Shown here: positions 41,561 to 63,933 of the stretch, one piece after another
Position numbering within the stretch: the stretch's first letter is position 1
Layout: every line of letters starts with the position of its first letter
Assembly (NCBI GenBank): GCA_028714915.1
Contig: JAQTLL010000005.1
Span: 1-64,000 of the forward strand
Direction: 5' to 3'
DNA from: Sulfuricurvum sp.
GTDB taxonomy: Bacteria; Campylobacterota; Campylobacteria; Campylobacterales; Sulfurimonadaceae
Length of the DNA: 64,000 nt
Made by a program: the position numbers and the translations under genes
Notes under the pieces: generated by a model
Told to the model about the DNA's origin: nothing
Databases searched by the model: none
What the model saw: the letters and a program-made list of their open reading frames with translations, nothing else

Positions 41561-44338
41561 TTATTTCAACTCACCCCAGTGAGTCCCAATATGCATCGAG
41601 GTCTTGAGAGGGACCCGCAGTTCAAGAATATGCTCCATCACATTTACAAAACGGCTCGCGTATTCCTCAGCAATATCCTCATCCACCTCAAAAATCAGTT
41701 CATCGTGAATCTGTAACAGCATTCGAGCACGTAAACCCTCACTTCGAATCATCGTATCGATCTTGTTCATCGAAAGTTTGATGAGATCGCTGGCAGAGCC
41801 TTGGAACACCGTATTGACCAATTCACGCTCGTAGGCGGCTTTGAGCATTGGAGTCGCAGCGGCAAAGTCAAAATATCGTCGGCGATGCAATAATGTCTCG
41901 ACGTATCCTATCTCTTTTGCCTGCTCGACAATACCGCTAAAATACTCTTTAACATTCGAAAAGGTTTCGAAATAGCGCTCAATTATCTCTTTTGCCTCTT
42001 TGGTACTAATCCCCAAGGTATCAGAGAGTTTTTTGCTTCCCATTCCATACAAAAGCCCAAAATTGACCGTTTTGGCAATATGACGTTTTGACGGAGCGTC
42101 CTCTTCTCCGAATAAGGCGATGGCGGTTTGCATATGAATATCATGACCGGCATTAAACGCGGAGACCAAGACACTATCCTCACTGAAATGAGCCAAAAGA
42201 CGCAATTCAATCTGTGAGTAGTCAATTCCGATGAGTTTTTTACCCGCAGGGGCAACAAAGGCTTCACGGATTCTCATCCCCAAAGCTGTTTTAACGGGGA
42301 TATTTTGAAGATTGGGGTTCTTCGAGCTGAGACGTCCCGTTGCTGTCCCTGTTTGGACAAACGACGTATAGATACGTGAATGTTTATCCAAGCGTGCCAA
42401 GACAATCAGCGGTTCGATGTACGTCGAATAAAGCTTATGATATTCACGATATTGCAACAACAAAGGAACAGCAGCATGGGCATCTTTCAATCCTTCAAGC
42501 ACCTGCTCATCCGTACTGTATCCCGTTTTGGTTTTTTTACCGTGAGGAAGCCCCAGTGTTTCAAATAAAATCACCCCCAATTGCTTGGGGGAATTGAGAT
42601 TAAAAACGGTTCCACACATTGCATGAATTTTTTCCGTCAAGGTTGAAAGTTCATTGGAAACTTCGATTTTAAACGTTTCAAGAATCTCAATATCCACAGC
42701 AATCCCCGCTTTTTCCATCCCCAATAACGTCAAAATAAAAGGAAACTCAACGTTCATCGCCTCTTCCAGAGTACGGTTTCCCCCTTTAAGAAGCAATTGT
42801 TCGCGCAACACCTCATAAAGACAATAGGTGATATAGGCATCTTCTCCTGCATATTTGCACGCATCTTCGATGGCAACGGAGGAAAAATTCTCTCCCCGTT
42901 TTACCGTATCTTTAAAATGAATCATCTCATGATTGAGCAATGAAGGACTCAGATTATCCAGTGAAAGGGAACGGTTGGAGTCACTAAGCCATGCCATAAT
43001 AATCGTATCGGCATAGAGGGGAAGTCTCTCAACCCCTAGAAATCGTGTCACGAAATGGAGGTCAAATTTAAGATTATGACCGATAACTTTGCCTTTAAAA
43101 ATTGCTCGTATCGCAACTTTTGCTGATTCTTGGGAAATTTGTTCTCCGACACCCAGATAGTTATGGTTTAGGGGAACGTAATAACCGCTTTTGCCATCCA
43201 TGCTAAAACTAAATCCAACCAATGAATCGACATGAGGATTCAGTCCTGTGGTTTCTGTATCAAATGCTACAATCGTCTCCGAGGAAATGGTAGAGACCAA
43301 AGCCATAAGAGATTCATCGGTGTCAATAAGGATACTGCATCCATCTGACAAAGTACATCTATTCCCGTCATACCCAACGGGCACAAGAACCTCCCCTTCA
43401 GGGTAGACCCGAGGATCCACAACTGGATTCCCGCCTTCGCGGGAATGACGAATAGGCTGTGATTCCTCAAATAATGCTTTTGCTTTTAAAGTCCGTAAAA
43501 CAGCATTCATCTCATAATGAACCAACTCATCATAAATAGGGAAAAACGGATTATCAAAATGCATTGCATAGTCATTAAAATCAAAAGACTCAAAAACATC
43601 ACCACGTAATTTCACCAGCTCACGCGACCGGAAGGCATCATCACGGTAGGTCTCTAACAACCCACGAATGCGGGGAGGATTAACCTCATCAAGCTTTTCA
43701 TACATCGAATCAAGTGTTCCAAATTGACTAAGAAGCTTTTGTGCTGTTACCTTACCAATTCCCTTAACTCCGGGAACATTGTCTGCCGTATCTCCGATAA
43801 GTGCTTGATAATCAATAAACTGTTTGGGATGAACTCCGTATTTTTCATCACAATGACGTTCATTCATCACTTTTTTACTGATTGCATCGACCAAGACCAC
43901 CACATCATCTTCGATCAATTGATACAAGTCTTTATCATGAGAAACTACCCGAACAATATGACCTTGAAGTCGCGCATGGTGTACTACCGAAGCGATCATA
44001 TCATCGGCTTCATACCCGCTCAAAAGAAGGGATTTATATCCCATTTTTTCAATCCAATTGATGGCAACAGGGAGTTGTTGAATCAGCTCTTCAGGAGCTG
44101 GTGAGCGATTGGCTTTATAATTTGGATCAATTTCAGCACGAAAACTAGGTCCCTTGGCATCAAGGGCAAAAATGAGATAATCACTGCTGTGATCTTTGTG
44201 AAGTGAAGCAATAAAATTAATAAAACCGGTCAAAAGACCAGTAGGAAAACCATGCTTATTTCTAAGAGGAGGAAGAGCATAAAACGAGCGGAAAAAAAAA
44301 CCGAACGTATCAATAATGGTAACTGTTTTTTGTCCCAT
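41561..44338 (-). CDS. polA: DNA polymerase I with in-frame REP-derived insert
   Basis: 925 aa. 5'-nuclease domain (1 to about 285; VSHDKDLYQLIEDDV, GIGKVTAQKLL), 3'-5' exonuclease with intact DTE (FDTETTGLNP, about 360) and polymerase domain with motif A DYSQIELRLL (about 704), motif B KTVNFGLLYGMG and motif C QIHDELIFEV (about 872). Residues about 297-326 (containing RHSREGGNPVVDPR) are encoded by a mobile palindromic repeat in the linker between nuclease and exonuclease, so probably tolerated. Roles in Okazaki-fragment and repair synthesis. Confidence 0.96.
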   Translation of the reverse strand: MGQKTVTIIDTFGFFFRSFYALPPLRNKHGFPTGLLTGFINFIASLHKDHSSDYLIFALDAKGPSFRAEIDPNYKANRSPAPEELIQQLPVAINWIEKMGYKSLLLSGYEADDMIASVVHHARLQGHIVRVVSHDKDLYQLIEDDVVVLVDAISKKVMNERHCDEKYGVHPKQFIDYQALIGDTADNVPGVKGIGKVTAQKLLSQFGTLDSMYEKLDEVNPPRIRGLLETYRDDAFRSRELVKLRGDVFESFDFNDYAMHFDNPFFPIYDELVHYEMNAVLRTLKAKALFEESQPIRHSREGGNPVVDPRVYPEGEVLVPVGYDGNRCTLSDGCSILIDTDESLMALVSTISSETIVAFDTETTGLNPHVDSLVGFSFSMDGKSGYYVPLNHNYLGVGEQISQESAKVAIRAIFKGKVIGHNLKFDLHFVTRFLGVERLPLYADTIIMAWLSDSNRSLSLDNLSPSLLNHEMIHFKDTVKRGENFSSVAIEDACKYAGEDAYITYCLYEVLREQLLLKGGNRTLEEAMNVEFPFILTLLGMEKAGIAVDIEILETFKIEVSNELSTLTEKIHAMCGTVFNLNSPKQLGVILFETLGLPHGKKTKTGYSTDEQVLEGLKDAHAAVPLLLQYREYHKLYSTYIEPLIVLARLDKHSRIYTSFVQTGTATGRLSSKNPNLQNIPVKTALGMRIREAFVAPAGKKLIGIDYSQIELRLLAHFSEDSVLVSAFNAGHDIHMQTAIALFGEEDAPSKRHIAKTVNFGLLYGMGSKKLSDTLGISTKEAKEIIERYFETFSNVKEYFSGIVEQAKEIGYVETLLHRRRYFDFAAATPMLKAAYERELVNTVFQGSASDLIKLSMNKIDTMIRSEGLRARMLLQIHDELIFEVDEDIAEEYASRFVNVMEHILELRVPLKTSMHIGTHWGELK
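43365..43450. repeat. REP-like palindromic element inside polA
   Basis: Contains the perfect 8-bp hairpin ATTCCCGC-CTTC-GCGGGAAT (43427-43446) with flanks CTGG/TGACG, the same unit as at 63700-63725. The left half (CCCGTCATACCC ... GGGTAGACCCGAGGATCCAC) looks like a diverged partner unit. Translated on the minus strand it gives the well-known RHSREGGNP peptide of such repeats, in frame with polA. Confidence 0.82.
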
Positions 44339-63362: not shown

Positions 63363-63626
63363 TCATTTTTGTACATTTCCTTGATTGGATTGATTGAGGG
63401 CCAACGCATAATTCCCTCCGGTCTGGATAAACCCAAGCCGTCGCAAGAATTTATCGGTCTTGTCGATATGGGTACCGCTGTTGACTCCGGCTGAAAGTTC
63501 CACCGCTCCACGGTTTTCTGCCCACTTACGAAAGGCGCTCATTGGCAGAATAGTTTTGAATATCGGTACCGTCGATCCATCTCCGTCCATCAGTCGGCTG
63601 ATAAAACCCCTGTAGTATTTTGGCAA
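63363..63626 (-). pseudogene. C-terminal fragment of a GNAT-like acetyltransferase
   Basis: Up to 87 codons from a TTG. The stretch FRKWAENRGAVELSAGVNSG ... KFLRRLGFIQTGGNYALAL matches the acetyl-CoA-binding and final strands of phage-type GNAT proteins, but the N-terminal half of that fold is missing. No ribosome site is clear. Probably a remnant; the adjacent MITE-like element (63666-63790) lies 40 bp upstream. Confidence 0.5.
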
Positions 63627-63665
63627 AGCATAAAAAAAATAGTAATACAGAAAGGCTACTTTTAA

Positions 63666-63790
63666 TAGACTTCTTGCATAACTAACTTTTTAAAAAGAGC
63701 TGGATTCCCGCCTTCGCGGGAATGACAGAGTCTCGTCATCCTCGGGCTTGACCCGGGGATCCATCTTTAGAAGGTTATGCAAGAAGTCTA
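63666..63790. mobile_element. 125-bp MITE-like element with 17-bp perfect terminal inverted repeats
   Basis: TAGACTTCTTGCATAAC (63666-63682) and its exact reverse complement (63774-63790) bracket two REP-like hairpins: CTGGATTCCCGCCTTCGCGG... (63700-63725) and CGTCATCCTCGGGCTTGACC... (63734-63763). The outer bases TTTA(A/T) are near-symmetric too. No ORF inside. Its transposase, if any, is elsewhere. It occupies most of the 333-bp gap 63627-63959. Confidence 0.75.
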
Positions 63791-63904
63791 ATAAACATAA
63801 AGATCTTCCTTATACTTAAAAAATTATTTTTGATTATATCTAATTAACAATCAATTTTATTTTAGATGATTCTGTGTTTAAATGGCTCATAAATTAATAG
63901 TTTA

Positions 63905-63933
63905 TTGACAATAATATCCTATATGACTATAAT
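63905..63933 (+). promoter_or_regulatory. Consensus sigma-70 promoter of the right-end antitoxin gene
   Basis: TTGACA (63905-63910), 17-bp spacer, TATAAT (63928-63933): the same perfect form as TA module 1. AAGGAG at 63949-63954 is the ribosome binding site. Confidence 0.82.

Follow-up and report, generated by a model that had tools for sequence, protein, structure and literature searches.

A CGTC REP dimer between IS5-type inverted repeats in Sulfuricurvum: a probable non-autonomous mini-transposon and its relatives

Repetitive extragenic palindromes (REPs) have been found inside miniature inverted-repeat transposable elements (MITEs) before, and the 123-bp element described here, from a 64,000-nucleotide stretch of Sulfuricurvum sp. 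DNA (contig JAQTLL010000005.1, positions 1 to 64,000; "the window"), is a further case. The closest is QMITE2 of Coxiella burnetii, in which a REP with a GTAG tag forms the core of a MITE with terminal inverted repeats (TIRs) and direct repeats, and whose small copies resemble plain REPs (PMC5896051). The window element has the same layout of TIRs, direct repeats and a REP core. However, QMITE2 carries a GTAG REP, measures 150-190 bp and is flanked by 7-11-nt duplications of variable sequence (PMC5896051), whereas the window element carries a head-to-head dimer of CGTC REPs in 123 bp, has a 3-bp duplication of the form ANT and shares its ends with an insertion sequence (IS) of the IS5 family. 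Ends of the window type also enclose several kinds of cargo in different genomes, unlike those of QMITE2.

CGTC REPs were surveyed by Di Nocera et al. in 2013; in that survey they occur in several phyla, are assigned no dedicated transposase, and the question of what moves them is left open (PMC3733652). The two window units fit the published tag, stem, loop, tail and head-to-head arrangement, the last being the commonest for CGTC REPs, but here they sit inside IS5-type ends (PMC3733652 for the families). The same paper mentions REP dimers that lie, like the window dimer, inside a longer palindrome (CGTC-1 of Halothiobacillus neapolitanus and GTAG-15 of Anabaena variabilis); these palindromes are described as targets, and no IS, TIR or duplication is named for them (PMC3733652). 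In the window element, by contrast, the outer palindrome is made up of the two ends of a transposon, with a duplication outside them. IS5-family MITEs are short TIR elements moved in trans, as is proposed here for the window element (cf. the MITE review PMC10969869), and REPINs resemble the window dimer in that a REP doublet forms the unit, though they are associated with GTAG REPs and RAYT transposases (PMC3733652). The finding of a REP in a MITE is therefore already known as such; what appears to be new is that the REPs are of the CGTC type, that the ends are of the IS5 type and that different cargo was captured repeatedly. No description of CGTC REPs in IS5-type MITEs was found in the open-licence literature searched.

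Judged by sequence comparison, the window element is very likely a non-autonomous mini-transposon of the IS5 family that has a complete CGTC REP dimer as its interior and is moved in trans by the transposase of a 0.9-kb IS whose ends it shares. The MITE proper occupies positions 63667-63789, and its parts are as follows.

63664..63666, no strand: left copy of the target-site duplication, AAT (from the sequence; a 3-bp duplication is present in 52/64 elements)
63667..63682, forward strand: left TIR AGACTTCTTGCATAAC, 16 bp, identical to both ends of the G151 IS
63683..63700, forward strand: left scaffold TAACTTTTTAAAAAGAGC (printed ends compared by eye)
63701..63727, reverse strand: REP unit A, with TGTC tag, 8-bp stem, 4-nt loop and CCA tail (structure search)
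63734..63763, forward strand: REP unit B, with CGTC tag, 9-bp stem, 5-nt loop and CCA tail (structure search)
63764..63773, forward strand: right scaffold TCTTTAGAAG (from the sequence)
63774..63789, reverse strand: right TIR, the perfect complement of the left (inverted-repeat search)
63790..63792, no strand: right copy of the target-site duplication, AAT (from the sequence)

The original prediction of a MITE is borne out by the inverted repeats, the TIR pair and the AAT duplication, although its 17-bp ends need trimming. There is a perfect 17-nt inverted repeat (63666-63682 and 63774-63790, within a 22-nt pair at 95% identity), but the outermost T/A belongs to the AAT duplication, which leaves perfect TIRs of 16 bp flanked by 3-bp repeats. 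This boundary is drawn because 52 of 64 related elements have the same triplet outside AGACTTCTTGCATAAC at both ends. The flanks had first suggested a TA duplication of the Tc1/IS630 type; this was rejected, since shifting the boundary by one base gives the 3-bp match in those 52 elements and a 4-bp match in none of the 64. The units themselves read TGTC-ATTCCCGC-GAAG-GCGGGAAT-CCA (A) and CGTC-ATCCTCGGG-CTTGA-CCCGGGGAT-CCA (B), with A on the reverse strand, B on the forward strand and the tags facing each other. Both agree without mismatch with the definition of a CGTC REP (tag CGTC, or TGTC/CCTC; stem of 8-9 bp starting AT; loop of 4-5; CCA tail). Unit A fits family CGTC-1 and unit B CGTC-3/4 of PMC3733652, and the GTAG tag was not encountered, the window tags being TGTC and CGTC.

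The 64 elements are distinct, were drawn from loci fetched by TIR matches, and have both ends with at most 2 mismatches at a length of 40-320 bp. In 48 of the 52 with a duplication the triplet has the form ANT; when the ends were paired by shuffling, matching triplets averaged 19.2 and never exceeded 29 (n=1000). The ends are widespread among relatives. The 17-mer, with at most 1 mismatch, occurs in 109 of 228 family genomes, compared to 5 for the reversed control. A scan of 84,980 species genomes for end pairs 66-96 bases apart gave 28 stretches, mostly in Campylobacterota, with single cases labelled Calditrichaeota, Clostridiales, Fukatsuia and Rickettsia. Viral contigs held 2 lone 17-mer matches, neither with a partner end. 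The Rickettsia case (R. rhipicephali, L249, 5692-5797) has the same 16-bp ends, but its inverted repeat extends outward (GCATTTTGTACT / AGTACAAAATGC) and it has no target duplication, so it is maybe a different palindromic element that shares the core. Several genera also hold a class of 267-268 bp (L068, L100, L101, L146, L147 and others) in which the window TIRs enclose a long interior that is mostly self-complementary; size variants of this class, at 124-216 bp, look as if they arose by internal deletion.

An IS with the same termini, which the original prediction had proposed to look for, does exist. The IS of G151 is 896 bp long, both its ends are identical to the window TIRs (16/16), it is flanked by an ATT duplication, and its orfA and orfB lie in two frames joined at a run of seven A. 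By eye, TAACTTTTTA in the window scaffold resembles TAACATTTTA, which lies just inside the transposase-3' end of this IS. A second IS, in G123, is 906 bp long, ends in AGACTTCTTTCATAAC and again has an ATT duplication; its two overlapping frames encode an IS5-type transposase with the domains HTH_Tnp_4 (PF13613), DDE_Tnp_4 (PF13359) and PF01609. Its best NCBIfam match is NF033581 (IS5), which falls below the cut-off, the reason being that each frame was scanned by itself. Full-length IS pairs are also present in G113, G022 and, with diverged ends, G211. Relatives of the first G123 frame occur in 16 of the 228 family genomes, the window's own genome (G000) being without one. The ANT duplication may place these elements in the ISL2 subgroup of IS5.

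The evidence that loaded MITEs move as a unit comes from the relatives. In a metagenome-assembled genome (MAG) of Sulfurovum, a genus that NCBI assigns to a different family than Sulfuricurvum, three loci each have a 123-bp copy that carries the window dimer in a related scaffold, and 2 of the 3 copies have matching triplets. All 12 candidates in this MAG were scored: the 3 dimers are all framed by TIRs, and one half-unit has no TIR. This supports, in relatives, the proposal that the MITE spreads REP units, as no dimer was found outside the MITE there. G057 and G150 carry other REP cargo at many loci with ANT duplications. For the G057 C1 copy, three relatives show the empty site with a single triplet (ACT in G044, ACT in G070 and AAT in G054) where the filled site has ATT twice, and palindrome and REP are missing from these sites together. 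A diverged empty site for a LacPavin (G150-type) copy of cargo D was seen in G216.

In the proposed mechanism, the transposase of the 0.9-kb IS would recognise the ends only, and the REP dimer would ride along between them, so that the loaded MITE could be copied to new sites within and between genomes. Anything short between two ends would be moved, and intergenic REP dimers, being numerous, would often be caught. The dimer may have entered by either of two routes: a REP unit could have inserted into a short MITE, or a deletion or recombination could have brought two IS ends to either side of a REP dimer. The enzyme that moved the window copy is, we infer, the transposase of such an IS. The window copy, which has perfect TIRs and a perfect duplication in an assembly where the transposase was not found, is probably a fairly recent arrival that is now stranded. 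This offers a candidate answer to what moves CGTC REPs, namely a DDE transposase that recognises the ends alone and can move any dimer caught between them. It also means that REP dimers reported elsewhere as "inserted in palindromes" may be loaded MITEs.

Several points weigh against this explanation. No transposition was observed, and all of the evidence is comparative. The 64 elements were drawn through their TIRs and are not a random sample; 12 of them have no matching triplet, and about 25 have other interiors, some AT-rich, with no REP-like cargo. G000 holds one intact element, the other 17-mer matches at up to 2 mismatches being two lone sites. An IS5-type transposase was not found in G000 at E<=1e-8 (the assembly is 91% complete), nor was a DDE_Tnp_1 (PF01609) match. 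The flanks of the window copy are not conserved, and for this reason no empty site for it was found in 41 Sulfuricurvum genomes. The original prediction had named a single copy with no matching IS and no empty site in relatives as what would speak against it; the copy is indeed single in G000, but relatives have a matching IS, and also empty sites with a single ANT triplet, these sites belonging to copies other than that of the window. The single copy lowers the claim of present activity, not the claim of kinship.

The interiors of the 64 elements differ considerably. By reading, aided by short sequence tags, 4 hold the A-B dimer (the window and the three Sulfurovum loci) and 2 hairpin A only, while others hold cargo C (the CGTTCGCCC/TTCGACAAG type, 8/64), cargo D (GATTGCTTC type, 13/64), cargo E (GATTCTGAATCAAG type, 9/64) or cargo F (AGGTGAGGC type, 2/64). 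One Calditrichaeota element (1/64) has yet another REP-like cargo. REP-like palindromes of several unrelated types are thus present in 39/64 elements. A strict structure search (CGTC tag, stem of at least 7, loop of 3-8) passed 12 of the 53 elements of 80-165 bp, compared to 0.4 for shuffles and 0 for the reversed control; the number is this low because cargo C, D and F fail the 7-bp stem behind the CGTC tag. Elements of 51-76 bp without REP-like cargo also exist, and REP cargo is common but not required.

One could take these interiors further and consider IS5-type MITEs as a general vehicle for CGTC REPs, which repeatedly captures resident dimers, carries them between Sulfuricurvum, Sulfurovum, Sulfurimonas and Calditrichaeota and, through capture followed by decay of the MITE, is a main way in which REP families become established in new genomes. 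This extension is tentative, and we rather doubt it. Equally tentative is the part of it which holds that some REP families, such as cargo D of G150, now exist only as MITE interiors.

The variety of palindromic cargo can also be explained by selection, if folding, or the ending of read-in transcription, helps the MITE and unrelated hairpins have been recruited repeatedly for that purpose. Several unrelated types do sit between the same TIRs, and the window element as single-stranded DNA folds at -37.8 kcal/mol (shuffle mean -13.35, z = -9.1, 0/200 as low). However, elements without REP-like cargo, some of them AT-rich, occur at several loci, and no terminator-like site was found at the window element, which makes selection an unlikely account. 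A search of the region against Rfam gave a sole match, a weak full-length one to the Francisella small RNA FtrB (63638-63739, reverse strand, 32.7 bits), which is below the gathering score of 66 and may reflect shared hairpins.

Another explanation has REP families born as MITE interiors, the free REPs being MITEs that lost their ends, as was proposed for the GTAG REPs of QMITE2 in Coxiella (PMC5896051). The copies of cargo D in G150 behave in this way: of 40 scored copies (40 candidates were scored in each of G057 and G150, which had 59 and 123 at first look), 22 lie near a good TIR, and of the other 18, 10 show remnants of both ends and 8 of one, which leaves no TIR-free copy among the 40. 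Cargo C and the A-B dimer do not. In G057, cargo C lies near a TIR at 7 of its 37 scored places, and among 20 of the other 30 that were re-examined, 19 have no TIR trace and 1 has both ends. The A-B dimer points in the same direction, since 16 distinct intact dimers among the loci examined comprise 4 with perfect TIRs, 1 (G066) with decayed TIRs and 11 with no TIR signal beyond that of shuffles. The free dimers of Sulfuricurvum stand alone without TIR traces. Birth inside a MITE may hold for cargo D, but as a rule it is quite improbable. The same free copies fit the original suggestion that one mobile element captured another, as the IS5-type TIRs frame a REP dimer that in 11 of the 16 cases is also found free. 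Apart from these 16, G077 has a longer framed copy, and half copies occur both there and in G062. The longer one (L285, 1285-1439; G077:C80) is a 154-bp A-B MITE whose B side has an extra stretch with CCCTATAGGGCACAAGAACCTC; this stretch recurs in further REP copies of G000 and, in diverged form, in an insertion in polA, and appears as a nested third repeat.

It could also be argued that the outer palindrome is a mere target into which the REP dimer was inserted, and that the composite is immobile. REP dimers are said to be "inserted within" longer palindromes in H. neapolitanus and A. variabilis in PMC3733652, and the edges of free dimers are identical to those of framed ones (AGCT/GGATTCC..GGATCCA/TC, the slashes marking the edges), which makes a self-moving REP unit plausible. 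But the outer palindrome has IS ends and an external 3-bp duplication, copies loaded with the same cargo stand at several loci and are each flanked by a triplet of their own, and the empty sites are without palindrome and REP together. A passive target is very unlikely on these grounds. Chance or an assembly artefact, for which the single copy in G000 could be cited, is already refuted: the 17-mer, with up to 3 mismatches allowed, was matched twice in 1/100 shuffles, the end pattern is in 109/228 family genomes against 5 for the reversed one, and the same composite recurs in the Sulfurovum MAG.

The REP units have further copies in G000. Hairpin A (25 nt) recurs exactly at 43425-43449 in the polA open reading frame, where the shuffle expectation is 0, and, with up to 3 mismatches, is found at 26 places in the genome against none for the reversed control. 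Of the 61 rows of the G000 search, most are partial matches to A, B or both. Hairpin B has one copy in the window. The original prediction put the inner hairpins in the family of the polA insert, which is exact for A; the A copy there is adjoined only by a longer, diverged B-like stretch. The polA frame (41561-44338, reverse strand) takes up this REP insertion (43360-43450) in frame, between the Pfam matches to the 5'-3' exonuclease and the 3'-5' exonuclease, and DNA polymerase I is listed among REP-tagged genes in PMC3733652. A RAYT was considered as the mover of the REPs in G000 and rejected, as G000 has 0 matches to the Y1 (RAYT-type) transposase family PF01797. Among the 41 Sulfuricurvum genomes, a Y1 transposase is present in 19 (4/9 with A-B matches vs 15/32 without), so there is no association with the A-B dimers.

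As for the surroundings, one lone TIR end in G000 (C4:110348-110373; L051, about 1850-1880) has 2 mismatches to the 17-mer and lies about 25 bases from a GGGGACAG motif that resembles the one in TIRYT elements (PMC3733652). The truncated GNAT gene that was placed beside the element is not upheld, since the 87-residue open frame at 63381-63641 (reverse strand) has no Pfam match at E<=0.001. The end of the window has only weak glutamate-synthase matches to plasmids. Just downstream of the MITE there is a sigma-70-like promoter with 12 of 12 positions (63905-63933), followed by a small gene pair (L053:3961-4646) whose second member has a PIN domain. The region of the pair is 91% alike in G069, where the MITE flank is absent, and the pair looks like a toxin-antitoxin module.
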